Shown: positions 9,797 through 33,974 of the stretch, piece by piece
Position numbering within the stretch: position 1 is the first letter of the stretch
How the letters are laid out: each line of letters opens with the position of its first letter
DNA from: Thermothelomyces thermophilus ATCC 42464
Taxonomy: Eukaryota > Ascomycota > Sordariomycetes > Sordariales > Chaetomiaceae
DNA length: 64,000 nt
Reading direction: 5' to 3'
NCBI RefSeq assembly: GCF_000226095.1
Contig: NC_016472.1
Coordinates: 8,494,001-8,558,000 of the forward strand
The notes under the pieces: model-generated
Told to the model about the DNA's origin: nothing
What the model saw: the letters and a program-made list of their open reading frames with translations, nothing else
Databases searched by the model: none
Program-made: the position numbers and the translations under genes

Positions 9797-10224
9797 TATG
9801 ACGAACCTAACTCAGACTTCTTCTAAAAGGGTTCAGACGAAGGTAGATTGAGCAGGACAAGCAGGCAGGTCGTCTAAGGGATTCGGTAAAGCCAAAGGGT
9901 TCATAACAACACTAGAGTTATCTCTTATAGTAATTAGCAATACTTGGTATAAGTACTTTGATTTTAGGTTACTATCACTAGTAAACTCTCAGGGTCTACT
10001 GTAACAAGTGACTATCTATATATATATATAATCCTAGGATTATTAGCAGTTGTAGTGATCCTCTATACTAGCTTACCTAGCTTATGTCGTAAGCTAATAA
10101 TCCCCTACTAAGATCATTTCTTGCTAAGTGTGATCCTGTCCTGATTAGTCCTTTATTCTTTTGGCTTAATTAGCCCGTTTGTACTAGTAGCTTAGGTAGC
10201 ATCTATATATATATTTCCGTAATA
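9797..10224 (-). repeat. Element I 3' LTR
   Basis: This is a 428-bp LTR whose left terminus is TATGACGAACC (RIPed TGTGACGAACC) and whose right terminus is TTCCGTAATA (RIPed TTCCGTGACA). It is a direct repeat of 16926-17353 and homologous to 19243-19670 and 33975-34402. Confidence 0.92.
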
Positions 10225-10241
10225 TAATGCCCTCTCTCTAA

Positions 10242-10260
10242 GGCTTTTGACCTAAAAGCC
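10242..10260. repeat. Hairpin next to the polypurine tract (element I)
   Basis: GGCTTTTG-ACC-TAAAAGCC is the RIPed version of the perfect 8-bp stem seen at 19688-19706 and 33026-33044. It lies just inside the 3' LTR of each of the three related elements. Confidence 0.6.
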
Positions 10261-11000
10261 CTCTTTAGGTCGTTTTAAATAGTATTAATATTCTTTTCTA
10301 TATATACCTTGTAATTTTTTTCCTTTTTCTATATTACTAGTAGCTAATAAGATAGTAGATTATATCTCTAAGTGCCGATCTTCGAAATCCTAATAGTACG
10401 CTATACTTGCTTCTTTTATTAATTCTTCTAGTATAGACGTTATACTATGTTTATAGTGTTTTAAGCGGAACTTAGCTTATTATATAGCATTAGGCTCTTC
10501 TTACTATAGCAAGTATATATATTAGGGTCATTCTTATAATAGTTCTAACGTAGTATCTGCTTATTCGTGACCTAGTTTATTACCTTAATGTTTATAGCTA
10601 ACCTTTTATAGTAACAAAGATTATATCTAAATAAAAACATATAGAATAAGAAGAGGCTAATACTAAAGAGGCCCTTTTTGTTCTTTAGACTTAACTTTAG
10701 ACAGCTATTAGCTAATTAGCTTATCTTCGTCGCTAGAAACGTTTCTTAAAGGAGCGGGGTTCCGAGCTGTTTCGTCGAGGTATATAGTCTCTAGAGGAAA
10801 TAGAAGCAGAAGAATGGAAGGTATAAGATTCCGAGGCACGCGTTATTAGTAATATATAGTCCTAGGGTGCTAACGTCCTATTTGACTAGTCTTCTTTAGG
10901 CCTAGATTTGTTAGAGGCTGACTTGGCCGTTTTGTCCGAGCTAGTGCCTATAGTTAATCTAAGTTCTGCCGGTAGAACTATTTTAGTTTCTTAGGGTAGT
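10260..11000 (+). pseudogene. Element I additional (antisense) ORF remnant, Zn2Cys6-like
   Basis: This lies between pol and the 3' LTR and reads opposite to gag-pol. Around 10440-10540 the plus strand keeps the spacing of a binuclear zinc-cluster segment seen more clearly in element II (FKRNL and R-G-R-S landmarks), but most Cys codons read Tyr or stop (TGT/TGC to TAT/TAC, CAA/CAG to TAA/TAG). Near 10740-10800 it encodes a KERG..L...Q.LEE-type helical stretch like that of elements II and III. It is non-functional. The assignment rests on position plus shared landmarks, not on an intact frame. Confidence 0.55.
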
Positions 11001-14000: not shown

Positions 14001-14650
14001 CTCGTTCCTCCTGTCGCGATATCGATGTCGTTATACTGCCTCTTCTAGAGTCTGTAGTAGTCTACCTACCACTATCTATCTCTTGTAGTAAATCCGTAGG
14101 ATATGCCTTCCTTTAAGTATTATCTGCTTATAATCCTTATATGCTTCTTATCTTACTAGTCAAATATAACTCCGTTTAGAGTCGTAGGTAGCTACTATTT
14201 TTTTAACTAATATCTAGATTATAATCTTTATATTATAGTAACCCTAATATTATATCTTTATCATTACCTATATCTATAATGTTAAATATAACTACTATAG
14301 TCTTCTCTACTATAGTGATATCGATCGGTTTAGTCTCCTTATATACCTATTACATTGGAAATAGCCCTTTAACTATACTATACTTCTGCTTCATTCTCTA
14401 AGGTATCTATAGCTAATTTACAAGCGTTGGCGAAATCAGATTTATCTCTATTCTACTATCTACTAGTATAAGCATTTCGTGCTATTTCCATTATACTATT
14501 ATCTATAGTTACTTATCTTATCGCCATCGTCTAAAGATTATAGCGATTTCCTATATTTCTACTAGGAGGTCTCGATATAGTAGTCTCTTACGTTAGTTCT
14601 TCCTATACTACGCTATTACTTGCCGCTATATAGGCGTTAATGGTTTCCGG
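11000..14650 (-). pseudogene. Element I pol remnant (PR-RT-RH-INT-chromodomain)
   Basis: On the minus strand this matches the pol of element III at the DNA level along its length. The RT active-site region is near 13260-13300, the integrase core near 11550-11950 and the chromodomain near 11000-11100. All frames are interrupted by many TAG/TAA codons of RIP type. There is no coding potential. Confidence 0.8.
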
Positions 14651-16898
14651 GCCCCTCGAAGGGCCCTAACCCGTTTCCTAGGTTAGTACTAACCTCTTCG
14701 GTTATTTAGCTAATAGCGGCTTCGTCGATTATACTCATTTCTATAAGCTATTAAGTGCTTACTACTTCCTACTATTAGGTCTATTCTACTTTCCATCGTA
14801 TATATTATAGCTTTATCTAGAGCTCCCGAATTCGCGATTTCTTTTCGTCCGCGTAATAGAGGTAGTCGTTACTTTAGTACAAGTCCTATATATCTCGTCC
14901 TATTCTATAGTACCTAGGCTAGGCTTATTTTGGAACTATTGTAATGCCTTCCAGATCGTAGGCTTTGGTCTTCTAGAGCAATTCGGCTACTCTGTTTCTT
15001 ATATCGTAGACCTATTCTACAGGGCGTAAGCTTCTATTCTCATTTCCTTGTCAAGTTAGCTAGTAATTGTTTTCGAATTTGTCGCGGAAGTAATATTAGC
15101 ATCTATATGCTATATATTAGAACTAGGGCACTTACGTATATGCCTTATGTCGAGGATATAATTATATAGCATTGCCTAGGAGGTATTAGAATTCTTTCCC
15201 GAATCCTTCCTATTGTATATAGACCGTAGGTACCCTAACACTAAGGTAGGAATATTTCTTCTAATAGCTTTCCTATATATACTTGTTTTTTTTATAGTTT
15301 GTATATATAAACTAGTATTCCAGGTTCTATATGTTGTTACTAAGTTACTAGTCGTTAAAATACTTAGTATAGCTATTAGGCCTATTATATATCATAGGCT
15401 ATTTTCCTTTAATAGTTTCTACGATATGCTGGAGTTCCCTTGTCTCATCCCTTATCTTATCGCTTTACTAGGCAAGTCAAATTAAGTGTCTATCCCGTTC
15501 GTACAGTTCTATATTAAGCCGGAAAACTTTATTACGGTACTATTCGATTTGTTCCTAGAGGAATGGAACATTAGGTCTAGGTCTTTCGATTCCTTAGGTA
15601 TTGGTTATCTACGATCTATCCTACCTCTATATAACCGTAAAACCCTACTACCTTAAGGCTAGGAGAATCGAAATTGGCGATACGTATTCTCTTACCATAT
15701 CCTATTTAGCAAGACCTATCTCTAGGTCTATAGTGACCAATTCGGAGTATAGTGCTTGTTCGTCTTTACCGTTACCGTCGTATCTAAGACTATCTATATT
15801 ACTACCCTTATCTTTATAGCTTATAGCTACTACTTCGATAACGTCCTTGGTAGTTTTGTCGATAGCCGTAATTTCCTTTCTAGGGACTATCTTTTACTCT
15901 TTCTTTGGGCTTTGATATTTTTGCTTATAATGCTCTTTCTTTCTATAGTTATAGTAGGTAATATTAGACTTATCTTTAGTCGTCTTCTTCTAATCTTACT
16001 TCTACGCTATATCTATATCTATAGCTCTAGGGTATATCCTATATAAGGTACTAGCGTACGTTTGCTTTTTCTTATTATTAGCCTTAACTATAGTTCCGTT
16101 TATTTGACCTTGTTTCTATTGCTCTTATATATAAAGTCAATTATCGATTCTAATAACCTATATAATATATTTATCTAGGGTCCTAGGCTAATTATACTTA
16201 TATAGCTTGTCTTTAACCTTTTCCTTTAGGCCGTTATAGAATAGTTACATTAACGCCTCGTCATTAAGCTAAGACTTAAGTATATCCTATCTAAACTATA
16301 TAGTATAGGAAGCTACTAACTTAGTCTATTAGAGATTAGTAAGTCTTTTTTATATATAAATCTTCTTATCTTTATTACTAAAAACCTTCTAAAGCTCTTC
16401 TTTAAAACGGTCGTAGGATCGAAAGACTGCCTATATAAACACGTCTCGGTCATCTTCGTCTTCCTTAGTAAGATAGTCATTCTATATAGGCTCGAACTAT
16501 CTAAGTGCCTTACCCTCTAGTCTCGTAGCTATATAGAGAACTTTAGCTTTATTATCTAGAAACTTGTCGTTATTAAGCCAGAAGTAGGATCAGAGGTTTG
16601 TTAGGAATCCTATAAGATCTTCCTTAGTTCCTCTGTATTTGCTAGGTAGTTCGATCTTGATACGGTTCGCTTTAGCGCCCTCGAGTGCCTTGATTTTGGC
16701 GTAGGCCTCGTTAACTAGTTTCTATAAGTGCTTTTTACCGTTCTCAAGTTCCTTAATTCAAGCTTAAGTAGCCTTATCACTCTAGTCTAACTCCTAGATT
16801 CGCTAATAGAGTTAACTAAGCTAAGCAAGCAGCTGTTCGGCTATAACGTTAGTAGCTATGTCGATATCAAGGTCGAAGTCACCTCCGTTTTAAACTAT
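14637..16898 (-). pseudogene. Element I gag remnant
   Basis: This corresponds to element III gag (26383-28644). The start ATG has become ATA (16896-16898), a TpG-to-TpA change. The gag stop TAA (14637-14639) and the GGGCCCTTCGAGGGGCC hairpin just upstream of it (14650-14666 on the plus strand) are preserved. Many RIP-type stops interrupt the frame. Confidence 0.8.
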
Positions 16899-16925
16899 AA
16901 TAGAACAAAGGGAGTGATAGTAACG

Positions 16926-17353
16926 TATGACGAACCTAACTTAGACTTCTTCTAAAAGAGTTTAGACGAAGGTAGATTAAGTGGGACAAGTAAACAGGTC
17001 GTCTAAGGGATTTGGTAAAGCTAAAGGGTTTATAATAACACTAGAGTTGTCTTTTATAGTAATTAGCAATACTTAGTATAAGTACTATAATTATAGGTTG
17101 CTATTACTAGTAAACTCTTAGGGTCTACTATAACGAGTGACTATCTATATATATATATAATCCTAGGATTACTAGTAGTCGTAGTAATCCTCTATACTGG
17201 CTTACCTAGCTTATATCGTAAGCTAGTGATCCCTTACTGGGATCATTTCTTGCTAAGTGTGATCCTGTCCTGATTGGTCCTTCATTCCTTCGGCTTGATT
17301 GGCCTGTTTGTGCTAGTGGCTTAGGCGGTATCTGTATGTATATTTCCGTGATA
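16926..17353 (-). repeat. Element I 5' LTR
   Basis: This is a 428-bp direct repeat of 9797-10224 with termini TATGACG and CCGTGATA. It is followed by the right copy of TSD GTAGT (17354-17358), after which the outer element resumes. Confidence 0.92.
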
Positions 17354-19242
17354 GTAGTATAGCATGGTTGTATAGGTTAGTACCTGGAGGTATAAATAAT
17401 AAGTATACTACTAATATTATAGGATAGATATCTATATTTGGTGGTAGATAAAGACAATAAGCTAGGCGGCTAATGTATTTAATGACTTTAAAAGGACCTA
17501 TACGTTACTAGGATAGTTTAGGTAACGGCTGTCTGGGTAAGTAGTAGCCGTGGTAGAGGTATAGATATACTCGGTTGCCCGGCTTAAATTCGATGTCGTG
17601 GTGACTAGTATCGTATCTATATTTGGCGTAGGCTACTATAAAGTCTATCGCCATCTAGGCATCTTAGTGTAGATATTTGTATAGGACCAGGATATCCTGT
17701 ACCGTTTTCGACGGCGCCGTTAGCGCTTCTAACGGTCCGGCTAGTTTGAAACTATAGAGTAGCTCGTATAGAGATATACTAATAGAGGCAGTATATACGC
17801 TATTTAAATATTACTATAGCTACGGAAGTATAGCGGTCTAATTGTTATCTAGCTTTTTATAGACAAAGAAGTGTAGAGCAATTTCTACTATCTAGTTCTT
17901 CTGCTCTATAAGACCGTCTCTTTATAGGTAGTACGTAGTAGTTATTAATAGCTTTGTACCTAACGCTTTCTATATACTAGTTTATAGCTTAGATATAAAT
18001 TTGCGGTCGTAGTCAAATATAATAGCGGTTAGTACTCCCTAGTCGGATAGGAGTAGTTATTATATCAATATATGGCCTTAGTTAGTAGTGGTATAGTTAG
18101 AGTAGCCGGGTATAAGGAGCGTTTGTTTAGATAATTTATAAGATATAGTTATTATCAAGTCGATCTTGTTATATCTATTTAAATACTATAATGTTCCGGC
18201 TAATGGAACTAATGGTAATGTTACTATAAAGTTAATAGCGATTACTTATATAGATAGCGTATTAGATAGACGAATTAGCTAATAGTTATTCAAGGAAGGT
18301 TACGATTAGTGGCGTTAACTTGGTAGACAGGGCAATGCTTTACATAGTCCTATATACACCTGGTTTTTCTATCGATCGTAATGCTATATAAGTTATATAT
18401 TATCCTATTGGTTCTAAAGTAATGCTTCTCATTGTAGGCTAAACTTAAGATATATTATATAAGTCTCGATGGAACATATAACGTACGAGTACTATCTAGG
18501 CGGATGTAGTAGAGGAGCTTGTCAATTAGGACAAACGGTAGCCCGCGGCGTAAAAAAACAGCGATACCCTTATCGTCGACAGTCCTATCCGTGTACTTAT
18601 TTTTAATAAGATCCTTAATAATAGGGGTATACATAGTATTAGCCTTATAGCTATTAACGAACTTTACCTTGAGTTTAAGATCTATCCGTACCTTAGCGAA
18701 AGCGAACCAAACGTCGTCAAGTACGGCCAATCTATCTAGGCGTTTAGAAGGTTTAGGGTTCCCTAAAGCGCTTAATCTACTTAAGGCGTCTGGTACGAAG
18801 TTAAGTCTTCTAGGTAGGTAGTAGACTTTGAGGTCGTATTATAACAGGTAGATAGACGCGTTAATCAGGTGACGATTAGCGTAGTTAGTAGAACTTGTAT
18901 CTAGGTTAATTTGTTCCATAATACTATATATAGTGGCATGGTTAGTTAGGACGATAACTAGTATATACACCAAATAGACCATTATATATAGTTTATATAT
19001 TACCTAGACTAGATAAGCGACTTTCTATTTAGAGGGTCTATATCGTATCTTAGCCTTTATTAATAGGCGGCTTAAGAACATTACTAGTAGCACTTGGTTA
19101 GCTAGGATAAGGTTACCTAGGCACTAGTCATATCCATCACAAGTATAGAAGATTATAACGCCAAATCTACGTTCTAAATAGCCGTCGAGTTAAATATATA
19201 GCTACTTGTCAGGATTAAAGTAGTAGAGGATAGTCGGGTTCT
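17354..19242 (-). pseudogene. Outer element, pol middle: RNase H/integrase fragment
   Basis: The minus strand carries a still-open stretch at 18730-18455 (AVLDDVWFAFAKVRIDLKL, then ELLYYIR-like and CVPSRLI-like segments), which precedes the integrase zinc-binding region in this retroelement family. The integrase core follows leftwards. A GPY/F-type C-terminal module (KPGNRVYLYLYHGYYLP, then QRIGPFKV and RLAYCLYLPP) is at about 17640-17480. It is RIPed, with many stops. The fragment joins 34408 on its 5' side and 9791 on its 3' side when elements I and II are removed. The last five bases (GTTCT) are element II's left target duplication. Confidence 0.78.
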
Positions 19243-19670
19243 TATAACGAACCCAACTCAGACTTCTTCTAAAAGGGCCCAGACGGAGGTAGGTAAAGCG
19301 GGACAAGCGTACAGGTCGTCTAAGGGATTCGGTGAAGCCAAAGGGTTCACAATAACACTTAGAGTTATCTCTCATAGTAGTCAGCAATGCTTGGTATAAG
19401 TACTGTGATTGTGATTGTTACTACTAGTAAACTCCTAGAGTCTACTATAACGAGTGACTATCTATATATATATATAATCCTAGGATCACTAGCAGTCGTA
19501 GTGATCATTTATACTAGCTTACCTGGCTTATATCATAAGCTAATGATCCTCTGCTAGGATCATTTTTTGCTAAGCGTGATCCTATCCTGATTAGTCTATT
19601 ATTCCTTTGGCTTAATTGGCCTGTTTGTGCCAATGGCTTAGGCGGCATCTATATATATATTTCTATGACA
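19243..19670 (-). repeat. Element II 3' LTR
   Basis: This is a 428-bp LTR with left terminus TATAACGAACCC (RIPed TGTGACGAACCC) and right terminus TTCTATGACA. It is a direct repeat of 33975-34402. It contains a TATATATATATA run that would be the U3/R TATA region on the minus strand. Confidence 0.92.
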
Positions 19671-19687
19671 TAATGCCCTCCCTCCGA

Positions 19688-19706
19688 GGCTTTCGACCCG
19701 AAAGCC
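19688..19706. repeat. Hairpin next to the polypurine tract (element II)
   Basis: GGCTTTCG-ACC-CGAAAGCC is a perfect 8-bp stem with a 3-nt loop. It is identical, in element orientation, to the element III hairpin at 33026-33044, although the surrounding U3-proximal sequence is highly diverged. Confidence 0.75.
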
Positions 19707-20450
19707 CTCTTTTAGGCCGTTTCAAATAGCGCTAACATCCTTCTTATATATACCTTGTAATTTTCCCTTTTTCTGTACTACTAGTGACTAACAAGATAGT
19801 AGATTATATTTCTAAACGCCGATCCTCGAAATCCTAATAGCACGCCACACTTGCTTCTTTTATTAATTCTTCTAGCGTAGACGTTATACCGTGTTTATAG
19901 TGTTTTAAGCGGAACTTGGCTTGTTATATAGCGTCAGGCTCTTCTCGCTATAGCGAGTATATACGTTAGGGTCGTTCTTACAATGGTTCTAATATAGCGT
20001 CTGCTTATTTGTGACCTGGTTTGTTGCCTTAATGTTTGTAGCTAATCTTTTTATAGTAACGAAGATTATATCCGAACAAAAGCATGTAGAGTAAGAAGAG
20101 GCTAATGCCAAAGAGGCCCTTTTTGTCCTTTAGACTTAACTTTAGACGGCTATCGGTCGATTAGCTTATCTTTGTCGCTAGAAACGTTTCTTAAAGGAGC
20201 GGGGTTCTAAGCTGTTTCGTCAAGGTATACAGTCTCTAGAGGAAATAGAGGTAGAAGAACAGAGGGTGTAGGATTCCGAAGCACACGTTATTAGTAATAT
20301 ATGGTCCTAGGGTACTAACGTCCCGTTTGACTAGTCTTCTTTAGGCCTAGATTTGTCGGAGGCTAACTTGGCCGTTTTGTCCGAGCTAGTGCCTACAGTT
20401 AATCCGGGTTCTGCTAGTAGAACTGTTCTAATTTCTTAGGGTAGTTTAAA
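19700..20450 (+). pseudogene. Element II additional (antisense) ORF remnant, Zn2Cys6-like
   Basis: The plus strand between pol and the 3' LTR, antisense to gag-pol, has at 19889-19985 a cysteine-cluster segment. Its Cys positions read as C or Y in Zn2Cys6 spacing, with inter-Cys residues FKRNLA, ASGSSR and IR.GRS. Further on (about 20105-20280) it has a helical, charged stretch containing GRLAYL and KRFLKERGSKLFRQGIQSL, then a Glu-rich run. Stops are TAG/TAA at positions where Gln is expected. The layout equals the element III additional ORF, but the residues differ widely. It is not functional. Confidence 0.62.
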
Positions 20451-23400
20451 TTCTTAACTAGTTCCTATAAGTTATCTTCTAGTCTGAAATCAAGCTATTT
20501 GACTAAGTACTATAGTTCCCTATTAATGATATATAAATCTAGAATTTCTTTAATATCCTATTCTTCCTCTTTATCCTCTGCTTTAATGTATATAGTAACC
20601 TTAGTGTTCTTTAGTACTAGTTTGAGAAGTGAAATATAAAAAACATCTATCTGTAGTTATATAGATGACGGTAATAATAGTTAGTAGTTAGATGTCGAAA
20701 TTCGTTCTTTGATAATAAAGGGTCTAATCTTCTTAAAGTCTAGCTTTATACTTAGTCGTTTGGTTCGTAAGTTCCGTATAATTAAGTAGACTTTGTCTCT
20801 CCTCTCTAGGCAAGGTCCCTCGAGCCTATGTTTGTTATAGTAATTCTTTATTCTAGTTCTAATAAACTCGAGTTCCTTTTTAAGCTTTTTATATAGTACG
20901 TACATTTATTCCGCTTTGACTACTGCTCTTGGCACTATGACCTCCAGTCCTTGCCTAAGGTCTGCTTTATATCTATAGTTCGCGAAGAACGGTATGACTT
21001 TAGTTATTTCTGTCGGTATTATATTATAAGCGAGTTATACTATTGGCAATAGCATGACCTAGTCGTCTTACTAGTAGTTGACGTAAGAATGAAGATATTA
21101 CTCGATAACTTGGTTTAGTCGCTCTATTTGTCTGTTAGTTTATAGGTAATATGCTATTAATAGCTTGCTATTAACGCCTAATCGTTATATTAACGCTTGC
21201 TAGAACTTCGATACAAACTTCGTATCTCTATTGGTAATCTATTCTTATAGCCAAGTATATACTAATATAACTTGCCGATAGATCACGTCTACTAACTGTT
21301 CTGCTATCTAGGACTCCTTGTAGGGAAAGAAGTATACTTACTTAGTTAGGCAGTCTACTATAGTAAGAATACTATTATAGGTTACTCTTATAGCTATATC
21401 CTTAGATTCTAACAGCTTCGTAATAAAGTCTATCGTAACTAAACTCTATAGTTTGTTAGCTATTAGCAGTGGCTAAAGTAGCCTATATAGCTTATATTAT
21501 GCCGTTTTGCTCCGATTGTAGATGTCGCAGTTCCGTACGACTTCCTTAACTCATGCCGTTAACTATAGAAAGTCGTAGTGTTTCTTAACTTATACGACAG
21601 TCTTCGTGACTCCTTTGTGTCCTCCGAGTTTCGACTCGTAGAGTTCTCGAATCATCTATAGCTATTAATCTTTGTTATAGATATACGCTTTACCTTAGTA
21701 CCAGAGTTTCCTATCTCTTTCTTCTACTCTATTAGGTATTAGTAGTCTAGGTATTGCTTAATACTATACCTTGTTAATCCTTTCTTCTTGAAAGATTATA
21801 TAGCATTTTAGGAACAAGTCGAGTAGATTATCTTCTATAGGTATCTACGTCTTGTGATATAGCGTTCCGTCTGTCTGTTCCTTAAACAACGGTAATATCG
21901 TTCCTATTCGTCCTTCCGTATGATCCGTTCGTCGACTTAAGATATCTGCTTATACATTCTCTTTGCCCTTTTTATAGCAGATCTCAAAGTTAAATTCTAT
22001 AAGGAATTCTACCTATCGTATTTATTGTCTATTAAGCTCCTTTGTCATTATAAAGTATCGTAAATTCTTATGATCTGTATATACTTATACTGGTTTAATC
22101 GTACTACTAAGGTATAGTCACCATTCCTTGAAAGCTTCGACAATCACAAGTAGTTCCTTATTATAGATTAGGTAATTAAGACGTAATCTATCGAGCTTCT
22201 TTAAAAAGAAGGCTATAGGATGTAGCTTTCCTTATCCGTCTTATTATCCTAATTATCCTCCGATGGCGTAGTTTGAAGCGTCTGTTTCTACCTCGAATGG
22301 CTTCTTAGGGTCTGGCAATACTAGTACTAGATCTTTAGTAATGGCGTTCCGAATCTATATAAATGCTTGCTCGTATTGCTCTTCCCATTAGAATTTAGTA
22401 TTCTTCTTAGTAAGTTCGTATAAAGATCGTATAATCGCTCTAAAGTTCCTAATAAACATCCGGTAGAAGTTTACAAATCTAATAAAGCTTTATACTTCTG
22501 TAACTAACATCGGTTATAGCCAATTCTTGATAGCTTTAACCTTTAAAGGTTCTATCTAGATTTGTCCTAGGGATATTTCGTATCCTAAAAAGACTATCTT
22601 CCTAATATAAAATTCGCTTTTTTCTTTGTTAACTAATAGCTTATACGTATATAGCGCGTCTAGTACTGCTTTTACGTACTTCTAGTATTTATCTATCATC
22701 TTAGAGAAGATAAGTATATCATCGAGATAATATACCGCAAATTTGTCGAGAAAGGGTTAGATAGCTTAATCAATTAGGGCTTAGAACATTGCTAGCGCGT
22801 TCGTTAGTCCGAATAGCATGACGAGGTACTTATAGTGGCTATAGGGTATCCTAAAGGCTGTTTTCTACTTATTGCCTTCTTTGATCTGTATATAGTTATA
22901 GGCCGATAGTAAGTCAAGATATATAAAATATTAGGCTCCTGCTAACTAATCTCGGAGCTGTAAGATTAGCAGTAACAGGTATTAGTTTTTCATAGTTTAT
23001 TCATTAAGTTACTAATAGTTAATATATAACTATAGCTTTCTATCTTTCTTAGGCATAAATAAGATTAGGTAGCCTGCTAGTAATGTTAATAGGCAGATAT
23101 ATCCTCTTTAAAGGTTCTCCTCTAAATATTACTTAAGTTCTTTGTTCTATATCCAGCTCGTATAGTAAATCTTAAAGAACTTTAGTCGTGCTCCTTCCTT
23201 AAGCTTGATCTCGTGATCCTATAGGCTGTATTCTAGTAATCCTTCTAGATGTTTCGGTTCGAATGCTAAGTGTCCTTCGTATTCCTTCGGTACTTCCCTA
23301 GTCTTATCTCGTCTCTCGGTTTTCTAATAGTATACGAACTTGTTTCGTCTATAGCGATACTAGCGATTTCTCCTGTCTTAACCTACTGCTCTAATTACAG

Positions 23401-24095
23401 TGCTCCGTATTTGTCAATGGAGAGAATAGCTATTGGCGGTTTAGCTCGTTCCTCCTATCGCGATATCGATATCGTTATACTGCTTCTTCTAGAGTCTATA
23501 GTAGTCTGTCTACTACTATCTGTCTCTTATAGTAGATCTATAGGATATGCCTTTCCTTAAGTATTATCTATTTGCGATCCTTATATGCTCCCTATCTTGC
23601 TAGTCGAATATAACTCTATTTAGGGTTGTAGGTAGCTACTATTCTTCTAGCTAATGTCCGGGTTATAATCTTTATACTATAGTAACCCTAATATTATATC
23701 TTTATCGTTACCTATATCTATAATACTAAATATAACTACTATAGTCTTTCCTACTACTATAATGTCGATTGGTTTAGTCTCCCTATATACCTATTATATT
23801 AGAAATAGCCCTTTAACTATGCCATACTTCTACTTCATTCTCTAGGGTATCTATAGCTAATTTATAAGTATTAGCGAAATCAGATTTATCTCTACTTTAC
23901 TATCTATTAGTACGAGCATTTCGTGCTATTTCTACTATGCTATTATCTATAATCGCTTATCTTACCGCTATCGTCTAAAGATTATAGCGATTTCCTATAT
24001 TTCTGCTAGGAGGTCTCGATATAGTGGTTTCTTATACTAGTCCCTCCTATACTATGTTATCACTCGCCACTACACGGGCGTTAATGGTTTCTAGG
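20450..24095 (-). pseudogene. Element II pol remnant
   Basis: Minus-strand homologue of element III pol. A 74-codon open stretch at 20905-20681 (MYVLYKKLKKELEFIRTR) corresponds to the integrase C-terminal region. RT is near 22600-23000. All other frames are broken by RIP-type stops. Confidence 0.8.
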
Positions 24096-25908
24096 CCCCT
24101 CGAAGGGCCCTGACCCATTTCCTAGGTCAGTGCTAACCTCTTTAATTATTTAGCTAATAGCGGCTTTGTTAATCGTGCTTATTTCCATAAGCTATTAAGT
24201 GCTTATAGCTTCCTATTATTAGGTCCGTTCTGCTTTCTGTCATACGTGCCATAGCTTCGTCTAAAGCTCCCGAATTCGTAATTTCTTTTCGTCTACGTAA
24301 TAGAGGCAATCGTTACTCTAGTACAAGTCCTACATGTCTCGTCCTGTTCTATAGTACCTAGGCCAGGCTTGTCTTAGAACTATTGTAATGCTTTCTAAAT
24401 TACAGGCTTCGATCTTCTAGAGCAATTCGGCCGCTCTGTTTCCTATATTATAGACCTATTCTATAGGGCGTAAGCTTCTATCCTCGTTTCCTTGTTAGGT
24501 CGGCTAGTAATTGTTTTCGAATTTGTCGCAGAAGTGGTATCGGCATTTGTATATTACATACTAGAACTAAGGTACTTACGTATATGCCTCGTATCGAGGG
24601 TATAGTCGTATAGCGTTACCTAGGAGGTATTAGAATTCTTTCCCGAATCCTTCCCATTATATATAGACTATAGGTACTCTAGTGCTAATATAGGAGTATT
24701 TCTTCTAGTAGCTTTCCTATATATATTTGTCCTTTCTATAGTTCGTATATATAAACTAGTATTCTAAGTTCTATATGTCGTTACTAAGTTACTAGCCGTT
24801 AAGATACTCGGTGTAGCTATCGGGCCTATCGTATATCACAGGCTATTTTCCTTTAATGGTTTCTACGATATATTAGAGTTTCCTTATTTTGTCCCTCTTT
24901 CTATCGCTCTACTAGGTAAGTCAAATTAAGCGCCTATCCCGTTTACGTAGCTCTATATTAAGCCGAAAAACTTTGTTATAGTACTATTCAATTCGTTCCT
25001 AGAGGAATAGAACATTAGGTCTAGGTCTTTCGATTCCTTAGGTGTCGGTTGTCTACGATCTATCCTGCCTCTATATGACTATAAAGCCCTATTGCCTTAA
25101 GGCTAGGAGAATCGAAACTAGCAGTATATATTCTCCTACTATATCCTATTTGGCAAGACCTATCTCTAGGTCTATAGTGACTAGTTCAGAGTACGGTGCT
25201 TATTCGTCTTTACCATTGTCGTCATATCTAAGACTATCTATATTACTATCCTTGTCTTTATAGCTTGTAGCCGCTACTTTGATAACGTCCTTAGTAGTTT
25301 TATTAATAGCCGTAATTTCCTTTCTAGGGACTATCTTCTATTCTTTCTTTAGGCTTTAACATTCTTACTTATAGTGCCCTTTCTTTCTATAGTTATAGTA
25401 GGTAACATTAGACTTGTCTTTAGTTATCTTCTTCTAATCCTGTTTCTATACTACGTCTATATCTATAGCTCTAGGATACGTCCTATATAAGGTACTAACG
25501 TACGCTTACTTTTTCTTGTTATTAGCCTTAACTATAGTTCCGTTTATTCGACCTCGTTTCTACTACTTTCGTATATAGAGTCGATCATCGATTCTAATAG
25601 CCTATACAATGTATTCGTCTAGGGTCTTAGGCCGATTATACTTATATAGCTTATCCTTGACCTTTTCCTTTAAGCCGTTATAGAATAATTATATTAATAC
25701 CTCGTTATTAAGCTAAGACTTAAGCATGTCCTATCTAAACTATATGGTATAAGAGGCTACTAACTTAGTCTGTTAGAGATTAACAAGTCTTTCTTATATA
25801 TAAATCTTCTTGTCTTTATTGCTAAAAACCTTCTAAAGCTCTTCTTCGAAACAGTTATAAGATCGGAAGACTGCCTATATAAACGCATCTCGGTCATCTT
25901 CGTCTTCC
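24081..25908 (-). pseudogene. Element II gag remnant, 3' part
   Basis: Homologous to element III gag. The stop codon lies at 24081-24083 and the conserved UUCG-loop hairpin at 24094-24110. It is interrupted at 25908/33509 by element III, whose target CTTCC is duplicated; the gag 5' part is at 33509-33947. RIP stops are abundant. Confidence 0.8.
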
Positions 25909-26355
25909 TGTCACGAATAAGCACATAGGCGGCCTGGCAGGCTGCAGCCAGGACGCAGGACATTCCGACAGCCAATCACTTGACGGACCAATCAGAAGAT
26001 TATCACCGCCAAGACTAAGGTCTTCACTGGTGATAATAACATGTCACCGTCGACAACGCAGAATTACGAAGTGAAAGGAGAAGTGGTACTGGTAATAACT
26101 ATTGAAGAAGGACAGACAATTGTATATATATAGCTAGCTAGTCACTCGTTATGGTGGACTCTGGGAGTTCACCAGTGGTAACAATCACAATCACAGTACT
26201 TATACCAAGCATTGCTAATTACTATAAGAGACAACTCTAGTGTTGTTATAAACCCTTTGGCTTCACCAAATCCCTTAGACGACCTGCTTACTTGTCCCGC
26301 CTAATCTACCTCCGTCTAGACCCTTTCAGAAGCAGTCTAAGTTAGGTTCGTCACA
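25909..26355 (+). repeat. Element III 5' LTR
   Basis: This is a 447-bp LTR and a direct repeat of 33062-33508. Its last ~220 bp (R-U5) match the LTRs of elements I and II. The first ~210 bp (U3) do not, showing a different promoter module. Confidence 0.95.
26123..26132 (+). promoter_or_regulatory. TATA-like run in the element III 5' LTR
   Basis: TATATATATAG lies at the point where the LTR sequence switches from the divergent U3 to the R-U5 shared with elements I and II. It is a plausible core promoter for the genomic RNA. The same TA-rich run sits at the equivalent point in the other LTRs. Confidence 0.45.
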
Positions 26356-26382
26356 CGTTATTACCACTCCCTTTGTTCTGTC

Positions 26383-28644
26383 ATGGTTCAGAACGGAGGT
26401 GACTTCGACCTCGACATCGACATGGCTACCGACGTCACGGCCGAACAGCTGCTCGCTCAGTTTGGTCAACTCCAGCAGCGGATCCAGGAGTTGGACCAGA
26501 GAGACAAGGCTGCTCAAGCTCGAATCAAGGAACTCGAGAACCGCGAAAAGTACTCGCAGAAGTTGGTCAACGAGGCCTACGCCAAAATCGAGGCACTCGA
26601 GGGCGCCAAAGCGAAGTGTATCAAGATCGAACCACCTGGCAAATACGGAGGAACCAAGGAGGATCTCGTAGGATTCTTGACAAATCTCCGATCCTACTTC
26701 CGGCTTAACGACGACAAGTTTCTAGACGAAAAAGCCAAAGTCCTTTATGTAGTTACGAGACTAGAGGGCAAGGCACTTAGATGGTTCGAGCCGACGTGGA
26801 ATGACTATCTCACTGAGGAAGACGAAGACGACCGAGACGCGTTCACGTAGGCAGTCTTCCGATCTTACGACCGTTTCGAAGAAGAGCTTCGAAAGGTTTT
26901 TGGCGATAAGGACGAGAAGATTTATATACAAGAAAGACTTGCCAATCTCCGACAGACCAAGTCGGCAGCCTCCTACGCCGTATAGTTTAGACAGGACATG
27001 CTCAAGTCTCAGCTTAACGACAAGGCGTTAATGCAATTGTTCTATAACGGCTTAAAGGAAAAGGTCAAGGACGAGCTATATAAGTACGATCGGCCTGAGA
27101 CCCTGGACGAATATATCATATAGGCCATTAGAATCGATAATCGACTCTACGCACGAGAGTAGCAGAAACAAGGTCAAATGAATAGAACCACGGTTAAGGC
27201 TAACGACAAGAAAAAGCGAGTATACGTCAGTACTTCATACGGGACGTACCCTAGAGCCATGGATATAGACGCAACGTAGAAGCAGGACCAGAAGAAGACG
27301 ACCAAAGACAAGTCTAATGTCACCTACTATAACTATAGAAAGAAAGGGCACTACAAGCGAGAATGTCACAGCCCGAAGAAAGAGTGGAAGATAGTCCCTG
27401 GAAAGGAAATTACGACCATTGACGAAACTACCAAAGACGTCATCGAAGTAACGGCCACGAGCTACGAAGACAGGGGCAGTGATACGGACAGTCTCGGACA
27501 TGACGACAATGGTAAAGACGAATAAGCACCATACTCCGAACTAGTCACTGTAGACCTAGAGACAAGTCTTGCCGAATGGGACATGGTAGGAGAATATGCA
27601 CTACCAGCTTCGATTCTCCTAATCTTGAGGTAGTGGGGTTTCACGGTCACGCAGAGGCGGGATAGATCGTGGACAACCGATACCTAAGGAATCGAAAGAC
27701 CTAGACCTAATGTTCTATTCCTCTAGGAACGAATCGAATAGTACCGTAACGAAGTTTTTCGGCTCAATACAGAACTGCGCGAACGGGACGGGCGCTTGAT
27801 TCGACTCGCCTAGTAGAGCGATAGAATAAGGGACGAAATAAGGGAACTCTAACGTATTGTAGAAACCATCGAAGGAGAACAGCCTGTGACATACGATAGG
27901 CCCGATAGCTACGCCGAGTATCTTGACGGCTAACAACTTAGCAACGACGTACGGAACCCAGAATACCAGTTTATGCGCGTGAACCGCGGAAAAGACGAGC
28001 GTACGTGGGAAAGCTACTGGAAGAAATACTCCTATGTCAGCACTAGAGTACCTATAGTCCACGTACAATGGGAAGGATTCGGGAAAGAATTCTAATACCT
28101 CCCAGGCGACGCCACGCGACTGCACCCTCGACACGAGGCATATGCGCAAGTGCCCTAGTTTTAGTGTATGGCATACGAATGCCGATACCACTTCCGCGAC
28201 AAATTCGAAAACAATCACTGGCCGACCTGACAAGGAAATGAGGACGGAAGCTTACGCCCTATGGAATAGGTCTACGATATAGGAAATAGAGCGGCCGAAT
28301 TGCTCTAGAAGATCGAAGCCTGCAATTTAGAAAGCATCATGATAGTTCTAAGACGAGCCTGGCCTAGGCACTACGGAACCGGACGAGATATATAGGACTC
28401 GTGCTAGAGCAACGATTGCCTCTATCACGCGGAAGAAAAGAAATTGCAAATTCGGGAGCTTCAGACAAAGCTATGGCACGCACGACGGAAAGCGGAACAG
28501 ACCTAATGGTAGGAAGCCACAAGCACTTAATGGCTTACGGAAATGAGCACGATCGACGAAGCCGCTATTAGCCGAACAACCGAAGAGGTTAGCACTGACC
28601 TAGGAAACGGGTCAGGGCCCTTCGAGGGGCCTGGAAACCATTAA
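26383..28644 (+). pseudogene. Element III gag (RIP-interrupted)
   Basis: Structural polyprotein that would form the intracellular particle. It starts MVQNGGDFDLDIDMATD, then a coiled coil (about residues 20-75, QLQQRIQELDQRDKAAQARI). The capsid core follows (GFLTNLRSYFRLNDDKFLDE, then GKALRWFEP and YDRFEEELRKVFGD). A zinc knuckle with two Cys changed to Tyr is at about 27340 (YYNYRKKGHYKREC). After the knuckle there is an unusually long linker of about 380 codons with two C-x2-H-type motifs (ECRYHFRDKF and DCLYHAEEKK). In-frame stops are RIP-type (first at about 26848, CAG to TAG). The stop at 28642-28644 is shared by all three copies, with a UUCG-loop hairpin just upstream. It is about 754 codons long if read through. 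Confidence 0.88.
28615..28631 (+). repeat. Hairpin just upstream of the gag stop (element III)
   Basis: GGGCCCTTCGAGGGGCC folds as a GC-rich stem with a UUCG-containing loop 10 nt before the gag stop codon. It is unchanged in elements I (14650-14666) and II (24094-24110) despite heavy RIP, although this GC-only motif offers few RIP sites. It may influence recoding into pol, which is in the -1 frame. Confidence 0.5.
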
Positions 28645-31600
28645 CGCCCGTGTAGTGGCGAGTGGTAGCGTAGTATAGGAGGGACTGGCGTAAGAGACCA
28701 CTATATCGAGACCTCCCGGCAGAAATATAGGAAATCGCTACAATCTTTGGACGACGGCGGCAAGACAAGCGATTGTGGATAACAGCATAGTGGAAACAGC
28801 ACGAAATGCTCGTACTAGTAGACAGTGGAGCAGAGATGAATCTGATTTCGCCGACACTTGTAAATCAGCTACGGATACCCTAGAGAATGAAGCGGAAGCA
28901 TAGCATAGTCAAAGGGCCATTTCCGACACAATAGGTACGTAGGGAGACTAAACTAATCGACATCACTATAGCAGGAAAGACTATAGCAGTCGTATTTAGC
29001 ATCGTAGACATAGGTAACGACAAAGATATGATATTAGGGTTACTATGGCATGAAGACTACGACCCGGACATTAGCTAGAAGAATGGTGGCCACCTACGAC
29101 CCCGAACGGAGTCGTATTTAACTAGCGAGATAGGGAGCGCGCAAGGATCGCGAGCGGACGATGCTCAAGGAAAGGCATATCCTACGGATCTACCACAAGA
29201 GACGGACAGTGGCAGGCAGACCACTATAGACTCTGGAAGAGGCGGCACAACGATATCGATATCGCGATAGGAGGAACGAGCTGAATCGCCAATAGCTGTT
29301 CTCTCCGTTGACGAATGCGGAGCACTGCAATTGGAGCAGTAGGTTGAGACAGGAGAAATCGCCAGCATAGCCATAGACGGAACCAAGTTCGTATACTACT
29401 AGAAAACCAAGAGACGAGACAAGACTAGGGAAGTACCGAAGGAATACGAAGGACACTAAGCATTCGAACCGAAACATCTGGAAGGACTACCAGAACACGG
29501 CCCATAGGATCATGAGATCAAGCTTAAGGAAGGAGCACGACTGAAGTTCTTTAAGATTTACCACACGAGCCAGACACAGAACGAAGAACTTAAGCGATAT
29601 TTGGAGGAGAACCTTCGAAGAGGACATATCTGCCTGTCGACATCGCTAGCAGGCTACCTAATCCTGTTTGTGCCTAAGAAAGACGGAAAGCTACGGTTAT
29701 ATGTTGACTATCGGCAACTTAACGAACAGACCGTGAAAAACCGATACCCGTTACCGCTGATCTCACGGCTCCGAGATCAGTTGGCAGGAGCCCAATATTT
29801 CACGCGTCTTGACTTGCCATCGGCCTACAACCATATACGGATCAAAGAAGGCGACGAGTAGAAAACGGCCTTTAGGACACCCTATGGTCACTATAAGTAC
29901 CTTGTCATGCCATTCGGACTTACGAACGCACTGGTAACGTTCTAAGCCCTAATTGATCAAGCTATCTGACCCTTTCTCGACAAATTTACGGTATGTTATC
30001 TTGACGACATACTTATCTTCTCCAAGACGATAGACGAACACTAGAAGCACGTGAAAGTAGTGCTAGACGTGCTATACGCGTACAAGCTATCAGTTAACAA
30101 GGAAAAGAGCGAATTCCATGTCAGGAAGACAGTCTTTTTAGGATACGAAATATCCCCAGGACAAATCCAGATGGAACCTTCAAAGATTAAAGCCATCAAG
30201 AATTGGCCACGACCGACGTCAGTCACGGAAGTACGAAGCTTCATCGGATTTGCGAACTTCTACCGAATGTTCATTAGGAACTTTGGAGCGATCGTACAAC
30301 CTTTATACGAACTCACTAAGAAGAATACTAAATTCCAATGGGAAGAGCAACACGAGCAAGCATTTACGTAGATCCGTAACGCCATTACTGAAGATCTAGT
30401 GCTGGTACTGCCAGACCCTAAGAAGCCATTCGAGGTAGAAACGGACGCTTCAGACTACGCCATCGGAGGACAATTGGGACAACGAGACGGACAAGGAAAG
30501 CTATATCCTATAGCCTTCTTTTTAAAGAAGCTCGATGGACCACGTCTTAATTATCCGATCCACGACAAGGAACTACTTGCGATTGTCGAAGCTTTTAAGG
30601 AATAGCGACTATACCTTAGCGGCACAATTAAACCGGTACAAGTATATATGGATCACAAGAACCTACGATACTTTACGACGACGAAGGAGCTTAATAGACG
30701 ACAAATATAATAGGCAGAATTCCTCGTAGAATTTAACTTTGAGATTCACTACAAGAAGGGCAAAGAGAACGCACGAGTGGACATCTTAAGCCGACGAACG
30801 GATCACACGGAAGGACGAACGGGAACAACACCACCGTTGTTCAAGGAACGAACAGACGGAACGCTATATCACGAAACGCAGACACCCGTGGAAGATGATC
30901 CACTTGACTTGTTCCTAGAATACTACGTAATCTTTCGAGAAGAAAGGATTAACGAGGCACAGTATCAAGCAGCACCCGGACCACTGGTACCTAACGGAGT
31001 GGAAGAAAGAGATAGGAAACTCTAGTACCAAGGCAAAGCGTACATCCACGACAAAGATCAACAGCTATAGATGATTCGAGAAATCTACGAGTCGAAACTC
31101 GGAGGACATAAAGGAGTTATAAAGACTGTTGCACAAGTCAAGAAACACTACGACTTTCCATAGTTGACGGCACGAGTTAAGGAAGTCGTATGGAACTATA
31201 ACATCTGCAATCGGAGCAAAACGGCATAACACAAGCCATACGGGCTACTTTAGCTACTACTAACAGCTGACAAACCATGGAGTTTAGTCATAATAGACTT
31301 CATCACAAAGCTGCCAGAATCTAAGGACATAGCCACAGGAGTGACCTACGATAGTATTCTTACTATAGTAGATCACCTGACTAAATGGGTATACTTCTTT
31401 CCCTATAAGGAATCCTGGACAGCGGAACAGTTGGCAGACGTGATCTATCGGCAAGTTATATTAGTACATGCTTGGCCGCAAGAATGGATCACCGACAGAG
31501 ACACCAAGTTCGTGTCGAAGTTCTGGCAAGCGTTAATGTAACGATTAGGCATTAATAGCAAGCTGTCAACGGCATATCACCTACAGACCGACGGACAAAC

Positions 31601-32393
31601 GGAGCGACTAAACCAAGTTGTTAAGCAATACCTCTGCTCTTACGTCAATTACCAGCAAGACGACTAGGTCATGCTGTTACCAATAGCACAACTCGCCTAC
31701 AACACGATACCAACAGAAACGACCAAAGTCATACCGTTCTTCGCGAACTACGGATATAAAGCAGACCTTAGGCAAGGACCAGAGGTCACAGTGCCGAGAG
31801 CAGCAGTCAAAGCGGAACAAATGTACGTACTGTATGAAAAGCTCAAAAAGGAACTCGAGTTTGTCAAGACTAGAATGAAGAACTACTACGACAAACACAG
31901 GCTCGAGGGACCTTGCCTAGAGAGGGGAGACAAAGTCTACTTGATTATACGGAACTTACAAACCAAACGACTAAGCACGAAGCTAGACTTTAAGAAGGTC
32001 AGACCCTTCGTTATCAAAGAACGAATTTCGACATCTAACTACCGACTATCGTTACCGTCATCTATATGACTACGGACGGATGTTTTTCATATTTCACTTC
32101 TCGAACCAGTACCAAAGAACGCCAAGGTTGCCACGCACATCGAAGCAGAGGACGAAGAGGAAGAATAGGACGTTGAAGAAATTCTAGATTCACGTATTAT
32201 CAATAGGGAACTATAGTACCTAGTCAAATGGCTTGATTTTGGACTAGAGGACAACTCATGGGAACTAGTCAAGAATTTGAACTGCCCTAAGAAACTGGAA
32301 CAGTTCTACCGGCAGAGTCCGGATCGACTAAAGGAAAACCTGGGACAGAACCAAAGACAGCGCCCCAGTCGACAGTATCGACGGCATCATTAA
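28641..32393 (+). pseudogene. Element III pol: PR-RT-RNaseH-INT-chromodomain (RIP-interrupted)
   Basis: Pol is in the -1 frame relative to gag. The aspartic protease is at about 28806 (MLVLVDSGAEMNLIS). Reverse transcriptase (29601-30370) has [28 protein letters not shown] and active site YLDDILIF (about 29995). RNase H (30399-30960) has PFEVETDASDYAIGGQLGQ and a D..SR end. Integrase (31080-31900) has a zinc-binding CN.CNRSK, the DDE core residues in IIDFITKLPES, TDRDTKF and QTERLNQ, and a GPY/F-like tail. The chromodomain (about 32165-32330) has LQYLVKWLDFGLEDNSWE and places the element among chromoviruses. Stops are RIP-type TAG/TAA/TGA. Pol ends at 32391-32393 and overlaps the 3' end of the antisense ORF by 107 bp. 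Confidence 0.9.
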
Positions 32394-32934
32394 TCTGTGA
32401 CGAGGGCATAGTAGGCGTCTCTTGCCGCTCAACCTCCTCTAACTCGTCCAAGGTCGACAGACTACGCGCTACCATATCGGCACCTTTCTCCACTAAAAAC
32501 TCCTTCTACTGATAAAGACGCCGGAGCCGTGTAAGCTTTTCGGACAACTTACGCTAGGCTTCTTCCAGACGGCATTAAGATTCATCTAGCTCAAGTTCGG
32601 CACGATATTTAGCATCCTTGATACGACGCTGCTCCTGGAGAATGCGATCCACTAGAACGAACATTAGGAATCACATTTAAAGGAAAAAAAAAAAAAAAAA
32701 AAAAAAAGAAAAGGAGACGTGCTTACAGGAAGAAAGCGGTATGCCAGAGCCATCGCAAGAATGACCTCGACGAACGTAGGCTTCGCAACGCTTCGTACGC
32801 GCGATCATTTTGCAAACGAGGCCTTGCGACGCGCACCAAGAGCAAGGCATAACGACAAAACCGTTCTCAGCGATGTTCTGAGCAAGGGAAGCACGGTAAC
32901 GTGCAGAATATGACTTCTGTTTCTCTATCGGCAT
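32287..32934 (-). pseudogene. Element III antisense ORF: Zn2Cys6-like cluster plus coiled coil (2 exons)
   Basis: This lies between pol and the 3' LTR, on the opposite strand. Exon 1 is 32934-32727 (69 codons, no stops) and exon 2 is 32651-32287; a 75-bp GT-AG intron with a T24 tract separates them, and phases agree, for about 190 codons. Exon 1 starts MPIEKQKSYSARYRASLAQN and holds C-x2-C-x6-C-x8-C-x2-Y-x6-C. The Tyr codon TAC is one RIP-type G-to-A step from TGC, which would give an exact Gal4-type C6 spacing. Exon 2 predicts a charged coiled coil (ILQEQRRIKDAKYRAELELD; then ADMVARSLSTLDELEEVE) and an acidic C-terminus, with three in-frame stops at likely Gln codons. The architecture resembles a small zinc-cluster DNA-binding protein. 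A role in element regulation is inference. Confidence 0.75.
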
Positions 32935-33025
32935 TTTGTCAACATGGCGACCACGACGTAGAAACAGGGAGAATGCAGTACTCACAAGCAAAGGGTTGTT
33001 AGCGCTATTTGAAACGGCCTAAGAG

Positions 33026-33044
33026 GGCTTTCGGGTCGAAAGCC
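33026..33044. repeat. Hairpin next to the polypurine tract (element III)
   Basis: GGCTTTCG-GGT-CGAAAGCC is a perfect 8-bp stem 3 nt upstream of the polypurine tract. It is conserved in elements I and II although the flanks are diverged. Confidence 0.75.
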
Positions 33045-33046
33045 TT

Positions 33047-33061
33047 GAAGGAGGGGCATCG
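33047..33061 (+). promoter_or_regulatory. Polypurine tract of element III
   Basis: GAAGGAGGGGCATCG directly precedes the 3' LTR start TGTCACG. The purine run AAGGAGGGG is the expected primer for plus-strand DNA synthesis. Confidence 0.7.
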
Positions 33062-33508
33062 TGTCACGAATAAGCACATAGGCGGCCTGGCAGGCTGTAG
33101 CTAGGACGCGGGACATTCCGACAGCCAATCACTTGACAGACCAATCAGAAGATTATCACCGCCAAGACTAAGGTCTTCACTGGTGATAATAACATGTCAC
33201 CGTCGACAACGCAGAATCACGAAGTGAAAGGAGAAGTAGTACTAGTGATAACTATTGAAGAAGGACAGACAATTGTATATATATAGCTAGCTAGTCACTC
33301 GTTATGGTGGACTCTGGGAGTTTACCAGTGGTAACAATCACAATCACAGTACTTATACCAAGCATTGCTGATTACTATGAGAGACAACTCTAGTGTTGTT
33401 GTGAACCCTTTGGCTTCACCGAATCCCTCAGACGACCTGCTTGCTTGTCCCGCCCAATCTACCTCCGTCTGGACCCTTTCAGAAGCAGTCTGAGTTGGGT
33501 TCGTCACA
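33062..33508 (+). repeat. Element III 3' LTR
   Basis: This is a 447-bp direct repeat of 25909-26355, followed by the right copy of TSD CTTCC (33509-33513). The few differences from the 5' LTR are transitions. Confidence 0.95.
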
Positions 33509-33974
33509 CTTCCTTAGTAAGGTAGTCATTCTACGTAGGCTTAAACTATCTAAGTGCCTTGCCCTCTAGTCTTATAGCTATATAGAGGACTTTAGCTTTG
33601 TCGTCTAGAAACTTATTGTCATTAAGCTAGAAGTAGGATCAGAGGTTTATTAGGAATCCTATAAGATCTTCCTTAGTTCCTCTATATTTACTAGGTAGTT
33701 CAATCTTAATATACTTCGCTTTAGTAGTCTTAAGTGTCTTGATTTTGGCGTAGGCCTCGTTAACTAACTTCTACAAGTACTTTTCACGGTTCTTAAGTTC
33801 CTTGATTCGAGCTTAAGCAGCCTTGTCTCTCTAGTCTAACTCCTAGATCTGCTACTAAAGTTAACTAAGCTAAGTAAGCAACTATTCGGCCATAATGTTA
33901 GTAGCTATATTAATATTAAGGTCAAAGTTACCTCCGTTCTAAACTATAATAGAATAAAGGGAGTAGTAATAACG
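33509..33974 (-). pseudogene. Element II gag remnant, 5' part, and leader
   Basis: This continues element II gag from 25908. Gag begins near 33947 on the minus strand, 28 bp inside the 5' LTR, as in element I. It matches the N-terminal half of element III gag with RIP-type changes. Confidence 0.82.

Follow-up and report, generated by a model that had tools for sequence, protein, structure and literature searches.

Why should a retrotransposon carry, opposite its own genes, an open reading frame (ORF) laid out like a fungal transcription factor? The question arises in a window of 64,000 nucleotides of Thermothelomyces thermophilus ATCC 42464 (contig NC_016472.1, positions 8,494,001 to 8,558,000), in which a Ty3/gypsy chromovirus, here called element III, bears a two-exon antisense ORF between pol and its 3' long terminal repeat (LTR). 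We confirmed that this ORF is real. Our comparisons suggest that its zinc-cluster product probably controls the element's own promoter, and elements that are otherwise alike appear to swap gene and promoter as a pair. The features of the gene are as follows.

25909..33508, plus strand: element III, Ty3/gypsy chromovirus, LTR ends TG...CA, flanking CTTCC
32727..32934, minus strand: antisense gene exon 1, 69 codons plus 1 base; open also in 18 of the 39 further copies
32652..32726, minus strand: antisense gene intron, 75 nt, GT...AG, with a T run
32287..32651, minus strand: antisense gene exon 2, damaged by repeat-induced point mutation (RIP), with predicted coiled coil and acidic tail; ends with TAG at 32289-32287
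32755..32844, minus strand: cysteine cluster, residues 31-60, Tyr at the fifth position in the window copy
32391..32393, plus strand: end of the pol frame, equivalent to the pol stop at 1105-1107 of copy L009; inside antisense exon 2

The antisense gene is intact in other copies

We searched the T. thermophilus genome (7 contigs, 38.7 Mb, with the window on the longest contig) by DNA similarity, scored 40 of 323 candidates, the window included, and fetched the other 39 copies. One identical 196-amino acid spliced product is encoded by 18 of these 39, with coding DNA identical in 17 of the 18, and the remaining 21 contain stops or frameshifts. The intron measures 66-80 nt in the intact copies and 57-80 nt over all. 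The two-exon ORF that a first-pass annotation had placed between pol and the 3' LTR is thereby established. Its exons and 75-nt intron at 32287..32934 stood, but the window copy does not have the open frame assumed for it, as exon 2 contains three in-frame stops besides the final TAG. Compared with L009, a copy close to element III, the window copy shows 38 mismatches in 663 aligned bases. C>T and G>A changes make up 33 of the 38, and 20 of these 33 have a CpA/TpG context, a pattern such as RIP leaves. Intact copies extend beyond the position of the window copy's last TAG, where the frame of the window copy would next stop at TGA 32271-32269. In L009 the antisense frame ends at 983 and pol stops at 1105-1107, a tail-to-tail overlap of 125 nt.

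The cluster of the 18 intact copies reads C31-x2-C34-x6-C41-x8-C50-x2-C53-x6-C60. The window copy has the Gal4-type spacing that had been described, and the suspicion that its Tyr codon lay one RIP step from Cys proved right, since intact copies have Cys at this fifth position. The 18 copies (L009-L025 and L028) also share an open pol 3' end, and they suggest a recent amplification in a genome otherwise strongly mutated by RIP.

The carrier passes as a Ty3/gypsy chromovirus, with LTRs, a target duplication and an integrase with a C-terminal chromodomain. L009 has Chromo and SH3_Tf2-1 domains at the pol 3' end; Chromo scored 50.8 bits (cut-off 25.1), and rve fell just short with 31.8 against 32.6.

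The product is conserved and under purifying selection

Homologues, which the first-pass annotation had proposed to seek in other Pezizomycotina, are spread over this group. Successive searches returned 15 relatives first, 79 proteins by an alignment search and 133 from distant members, where hosts and names rest on the best 120 of the 133. Hosts among the matches listed include Chaetomium, Corynascus, Canariomyces, Staphylotrichum, Apiospora, Verticillium, Metarhizium, Colletotrichum, Pyricularia, Cryphonectria, Pseudogymnoascus and Penicillium.

The six-Cys pattern is present in 56 of 81 homologues (P0002-P0082), with the exact window spacing x6/x8/x6 in 45. Among the 25 lacking it, P0047 and P0078 are the only ones that span nearly the whole cluster region; P0006 and P0016 are frameshifted T. 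thermophilus copies, and the rest cover little or none of that region. The 50 rows of our alignment A5 were picked from homologues with the pattern, and the invariance of Cys there is partly by choice. The coiled coil gained support from an 88-residue helix predicted in homologue P0034, and the acidic tail is present, with a nearly invariant Asp-Trp among the aligned homologues.

Four of the 81 gene models (P0004, P0015, P0018, and P0025) run on into the antisense of the integrase C terminus and chromodomain in tblastn comparisons, with 34-58% identity over 31-61 columns (E 2e-4 for P0004 and 5e-12 for P0015); weak rows of P0074 and P0076 in sense frames were left out of this count. Chromoviruses of Chaetomium globosum, Corynascus similis, and Staphylotrichum tortipilum therefore hold the gene at the corresponding place.

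Protein searches revealed three further classes of the antisense gene in the T. thermophilus genome, B, C, and D, besides that of L009 (class A). For a test of selection we compared L009 with the class B copy L052, which is lightly mutated and holds 3 stops in its pol piece, restricting the test to the first 150 aligned codons, away from the pol overlap. The proportions of nonsynonymous (pN) and synonymous (pS) differences were 0.371 and 0.748, the latter saturated; over all 190 codons, the corresponding rates were dN 0.43 and dS 1.36. Since pN is half of saturated pS, the protein is under purifying selection, and an artefact of the pol overlap was rejected because the test was repeated on codons outside it. 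Two findings had been named in advance as speaking against the gene, unmutated relatives without the Cys spacing and a dN/dS near 1; instead, the six cysteines are kept and the constraint is evident. For the 3' end of pol, L009 and L052 gave pN 0.020 and pS 0.174. The antisense gene has diverged far more than the adjoining pol and therefore does not have the recent history of its neighbour.

These results bear on two other explanations. The last 125 nt overlap pol, as would suit a chance ORF opposite pol or in the T-rich spacer; we rejected it as having next to no probability, given homologues in many genera, selection outside the overlap, and identical products in 18 of 39 copies. It is also very improbable that the antisense strand acts as RNA, pairing with gag-pol RNA and feeding or blocking silencing, with the ORF of little matter. 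Passages of PMC7264820 propose such a role for antisense transcription of LTR elements generally, but it was already disfavored by the conservation of a six-Cys protein across genera, by pN/pS of 0.50 with saturated pS, and by the survival of a spliced frame across DNA too diverged to align.

Gene and U3 change class together on a common backbone

The LTRs of element III, with their unique 3' (U3), repeat (R), and unique 5' (U5) parts, are 95.53% identical over 447 bases.

25904-25908 and 33509-33513: CTTCC target duplication, both sides of element III
25909..26355, plus strand: 5' LTR, 447 bp
33062..33508, plus strand: 3' LTR, 447 bp; U3 upstream of TATA about 33062-33277, then TATA-R-U5

Elements sharing pol and TATA-R-U5 (about 84-96% identical) differ in their 3' cassettes. 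In global alignments of class A with class B, pol was 94.2% identical, the antisense region 65.9% (against a mean of 61.6 in shuffles), the polypurine tract (PPT) block 94.1%, U3 upstream of TATA 69.8% (against 63.3 in shuffles), and TATA-R-U5 94.8%. The A-C values were 88.0, 63.3, 83.5, 66.5, and 94.8%, respectively. Antisense gene and U3 upstream of TATA are the parts whose DNA identity between classes is at or little above shuffle level.

Gene class and U3 class agreed in 59 of 59 distinct loci (40 A, 7 B, 10 C, and 2 D), each assigned by BLAST to the nearest of four reference loci, which are counted among the 59; four duplicates had been dropped first. As the loci were found through the antisense gene, U3 class alone is the unselected observation. 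Class D keeps the cluster, with x8 in its first loop, and L088 has an in-frame intron at the same place. L090 was rejected as a further class and is an old, RIP-damaged class A copy.

Three of the four U3 classes contain a repeated site

An over-represented repeated site was found in the U3 of classes A-C. Class B has six GATCAC sites in alternating orientation, 16, 18, 16, 18, and 16 bases apart, with three GGATCAC-N10-GTGATCC-type pairs, the last one base off. Class C has GATCAC 7 and 9 times in two copies. Both classes exceed 500 of 500 dinucleotide shuffles for 6-mers and 7-mers. The class A U3 (L009) carries GGTGATAA three times, an 8-mer count reached by 3 of 500 shuffles. Counts of a common core, ATCRC, were reached by 3 of 1000 shuffles in class A, by 0 of 1000 in B and in C, and by 52 of 1000 in D, which is not clear; in R-U5 the core is not enriched (144-239 of 1000 shuffles). 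We ran 24 control tests on 12 other segments, and in 21 of them at least 84 of 300 shuffles reached the observed value. Of the three tests below that value, two concerned poly-A within the antisense region of class A (0 of 300) and one CTAGCTA in the R-U5 of that class (21 of 300). Several GATC sites also occur in the U3 of elements I and II of the window and of a right-flank fragment. Candidate sites in element III are listed here.

33153..33251, no strand assigned: candidate sites in U3 of the 3' LTR, TTATCACC at 33153, GGTGATAA at 33182, and GTGATAA at 33245
26000..26036, no strand assigned: the same candidate sites in the 5' LTR, TTATCACC at 26000 and GGTGATAA at 26029

The class A sites contain TGATAA, a GATA-factor-like word, as would suit a U3 that diversifies for host transcription factors or by chance recombination, with the antisense gene as a passenger. 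Promoter selection or recombination has been suggested for the diverse U3s of the Podospora element crapaud in passages of PMC10787394, a study that did not look at such a gene and has the words "antisense" and "zinc" nowhere in its main text. A passenger gene, however, need not stay under purifying selection, and we consider this explanation improbable.

An accessory protein without a part in LTR regulation, one that directs integration, acts against silencing or RIP, or binds nucleic acid inside the particle, is somewhat less improbable, though still unlikely. The gene adjoins U3, and their agreement could come from adjacency; a basic N terminus with a Cys cluster is compatible with other nucleic acid-related roles, and passages of PMC7264820 record the functions of such antisense ORFs as undetermined. 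Such a protein fails to predict over-represented inverted sites in U3, or that U3 upstream of TATA should be exactly the part of the LTR that differs.

Relation of the cluster to Zn2Cys6 domains

Zn2Cys6 domains have the spacing C-x2-C-x6-C-x5-12-C-x2-C-x6-8-C, which we found in 18 of 39 copies and 56 of 81 homologues. Homologue P0008 reached 16 bits with the Zn2Cys6 profile PF00172, and at E <= 0.1 the profile matched 11 of 50 homologues, the best at 0.0011. The PROSITE pattern PS00463, with its basic first loop, matched 9 of 147 six-Cys homologues. Lys/Arg averaged 2.97 in the second x6 loop versus 1.80 in the first (n = 61), and three host Zn2Cys6 clusters have a basic first loop. A search of the PDB by sequence gave no useful match, Foldseek and VIA-align with the full-length model were uninformative because the long helix dominates, and scans of viral contigs and genome contigs returned nothing useful. 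The family resembles the Zn2Cys6 factors Gal4 and Pho7 in six-Cys spacing followed by a coiled coil, in inverted candidate sites, and perhaps in fold, where the match is weak, whereas absent PF00172 recognition and a second loop richer in Lys/Arg set it apart.

Four T. thermophilus proteins, P0006, P0016, P0045, and P0063 (MYCTH_105130, MYCTH_66448, MYCTH_2308322, and MYCTH_2294124), are annotated pieces of the retrotransposon antisense gene, and one carries the UniRef name of a Zn(2)-C6 domain protein. The family also shows that some models labelled "Zn(2)-C6 domain-containing" in fungi are retrotransposon genes.

A proposed regulator inherited with its operator

The best explanation, and in our judgment a fairly probable one, is a self-encoded dimeric DNA-binding regulator that is inherited with its U3 operator. 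A dimer is suggested because head, coiled coil, and inverted sites fit one. The first-pass annotation had also proposed a self-encoded DNA-binding regulator, of LTR transcription or of host silencing, and the former is now the best-supported reading of the sequences because U3 switches class with the gene while pol and R-U5 stay, and because three of four U3 classes have a repeated site.

The antisense ORF would be an accessory gene of Ty3/gypsy chromoviruses that encodes a small regulator. Its Zn2Cys6-like head would bind DNA, the long coiled coil would pair two molecules, and the acidic tail with its conserved Asp-Trp may contact the transcription machinery. The dimer would bind the repeated U3 sites just upstream of the LTR TATA box: at the 5' LTR it would set gag-pol transcription, and at the 3' LTR, where the sites adjoin the start of the antisense gene, it would act on its own gene too. 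When a new copy is reverse-transcribed, its two U3s both derive from the RNA 3' end, which adjoins the antisense gene. Regulator and operator would therefore be passed on as a single cassette, and by switching templates near the pol end an element could acquire a new matched pair. DNA binding, activation rather than repression, a functional pairing of gene and U3 beyond linkage, and the route of exchange are what we infer here.

Several observations weigh against this explanation. PF00172, at its curated cut-off of 21 bits, matched neither the window pieces nor the 196-amino acid product, the outcome of a check that the first-pass annotation had proposed, and none of the 40 class A places is among the 125 PF00172 matches in the T. 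thermophilus genome. The class A U3 is modestly enriched (6-mers, 143 of 500 shuffles; 7-mers, 13; 8-mers, 3), the class D U3 has no significant repeat (234, 481, and 287 of 500 at these lengths), and the ATCRC core was picked post hoc. The B and C U3s retain some likeness (72-77% versus a shuffle level of about 63) and both contain GATCAC, so that class-specific sites did not emerge for this pair. Antisense transcript, zinc binding, and DNA binding are predictions. Gene and U3 adjoin, and linkage alone could yield their agreement in class, although it does not predict the site arrays. Finally, the block between gene and U3 is 98.7% identical over 79 columns between A and B. A single crossover could account for this only if constraint (PPT, LTR end, and inverted repeat) has kept the block alike; otherwise the exchange did not happen by one crossover.

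33026..33044, no strand assigned: inverted repeat GGCTTTCGGGTCGAAAGCC between the antisense start and the 3' LTR; surrounding block alike in classes A-C

This repeat is a perfect 8-bp inverted repeat around GGT, retained in classes A-C; it might serve as part of a promoter, bind protein as a second site, or form a structure on the PPT side.

A broader proposal, for which we see the chances as even, is that fungal chromoviruses carry swappable cassettes, each with its own antisense Zn2Cys6-like factor and cognate U3 array, replaced as a unit on a conserved pol backbone and drifting in specificity between classes (GATCAC, GATCGC, and GGTGATAA types). If so, the cassettes would be private control circuits and would explain U3 subfamilies such as those of crapaud. 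Regulator and U3 changing together across Pezizomycotina would give the antisense gene a testable function and account for the diversification of U3 on a backbone whose pol and R-U5 remain similar, and the natural protein-site pairs would serve the study of how zinc-cluster specificity evolves.

Relation to known antisense genes

HBZ-type genes of the human T-lymphotropic virus (HTLV) likewise encode an antisense regulator expressed from the 3' LTR side, but HBZ is a bZIP protein, and with protein and host unrelated the likeness is an analogy only. Closer in kind is brtn, reportedly described by Zhao et al. (2011, Virology) as an antisense gene of Boty-like elements of Botrytis cinerea. The passages of PMC7264820 that cite brtn place it among ORFs between pol and the 3' LTR. 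It is likewise an extra antisense gene of a fungal Ty3/gypsy element with gag-pol ending in a chromodomain; U3 pairing is unmentioned in the passages that cite it, and the likeness is drawn from such mentions. The name BRTN was absent from the antisense-gene protein matches listed (the best 120 of 133 in the widest search), and a passage of PMC5987419 describes a Monilinia transcript resembling both pol and BRTN. Antisense genes in LTR elements are thus already known, whereas the pairing with U3 would be new here: no description of a Zn2Cys6-like antisense gene paired with U3 was found in the literature searched, most subscription journals lying outside its reach.

The plant aORF-3R genes (Grande gene23, RIRE2, Retand, and PvRetro13) have the same place and orientation, according to passages of PMC7264820, which report a nuclear location for the Grande product. 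Their proteins are described there as without clear similarity to others, except for an SMC domain in PvRetro13, and those passages mention neither a zinc cluster nor U3 pairing. The LTRs of crapaud, also a chromodomain element, fall into 14 subfamilies according to passages of PMC10787394, which report conserved R and U5 but different U3s among them and leave this unexplained. Unlike the elements studied here, crapaud has no antisense gene reported in those passages, and its internal region shows little association with LTR relationships.

Neighboring elements and other observations

Elements I (9799-17400) and II (19247-25908) are inverted and heavily RIP-mutated, with TA/AT ratios of 1.61 and 1.54. 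They have pol in common with element III, but other U3s and remnants of a different antisense-gene class.

19841..19996, plus strand: remnant of antisense exon 1, different class, in element II (tblastn, 35-37% identity, with stops)
10725..11000, plus strand: remnant of antisense exon 2 in element I (tblastn, 33% identity, E 4e-5, with stops)

Among homologues from unannotated contigs, some read straight across the intron place and others hold in-frame extra sequence there, a hint of splicing. P0097, a 337-amino acid gene model of Pseudogymnoascus destructans, joins a member of the antisense family to a PF11917 domain and may be a fusion or a mis-annotation. A six-codon upstream ORF at 32925-32945 of the window (minus strand) overlaps the antisense start codon, making translational control possible.
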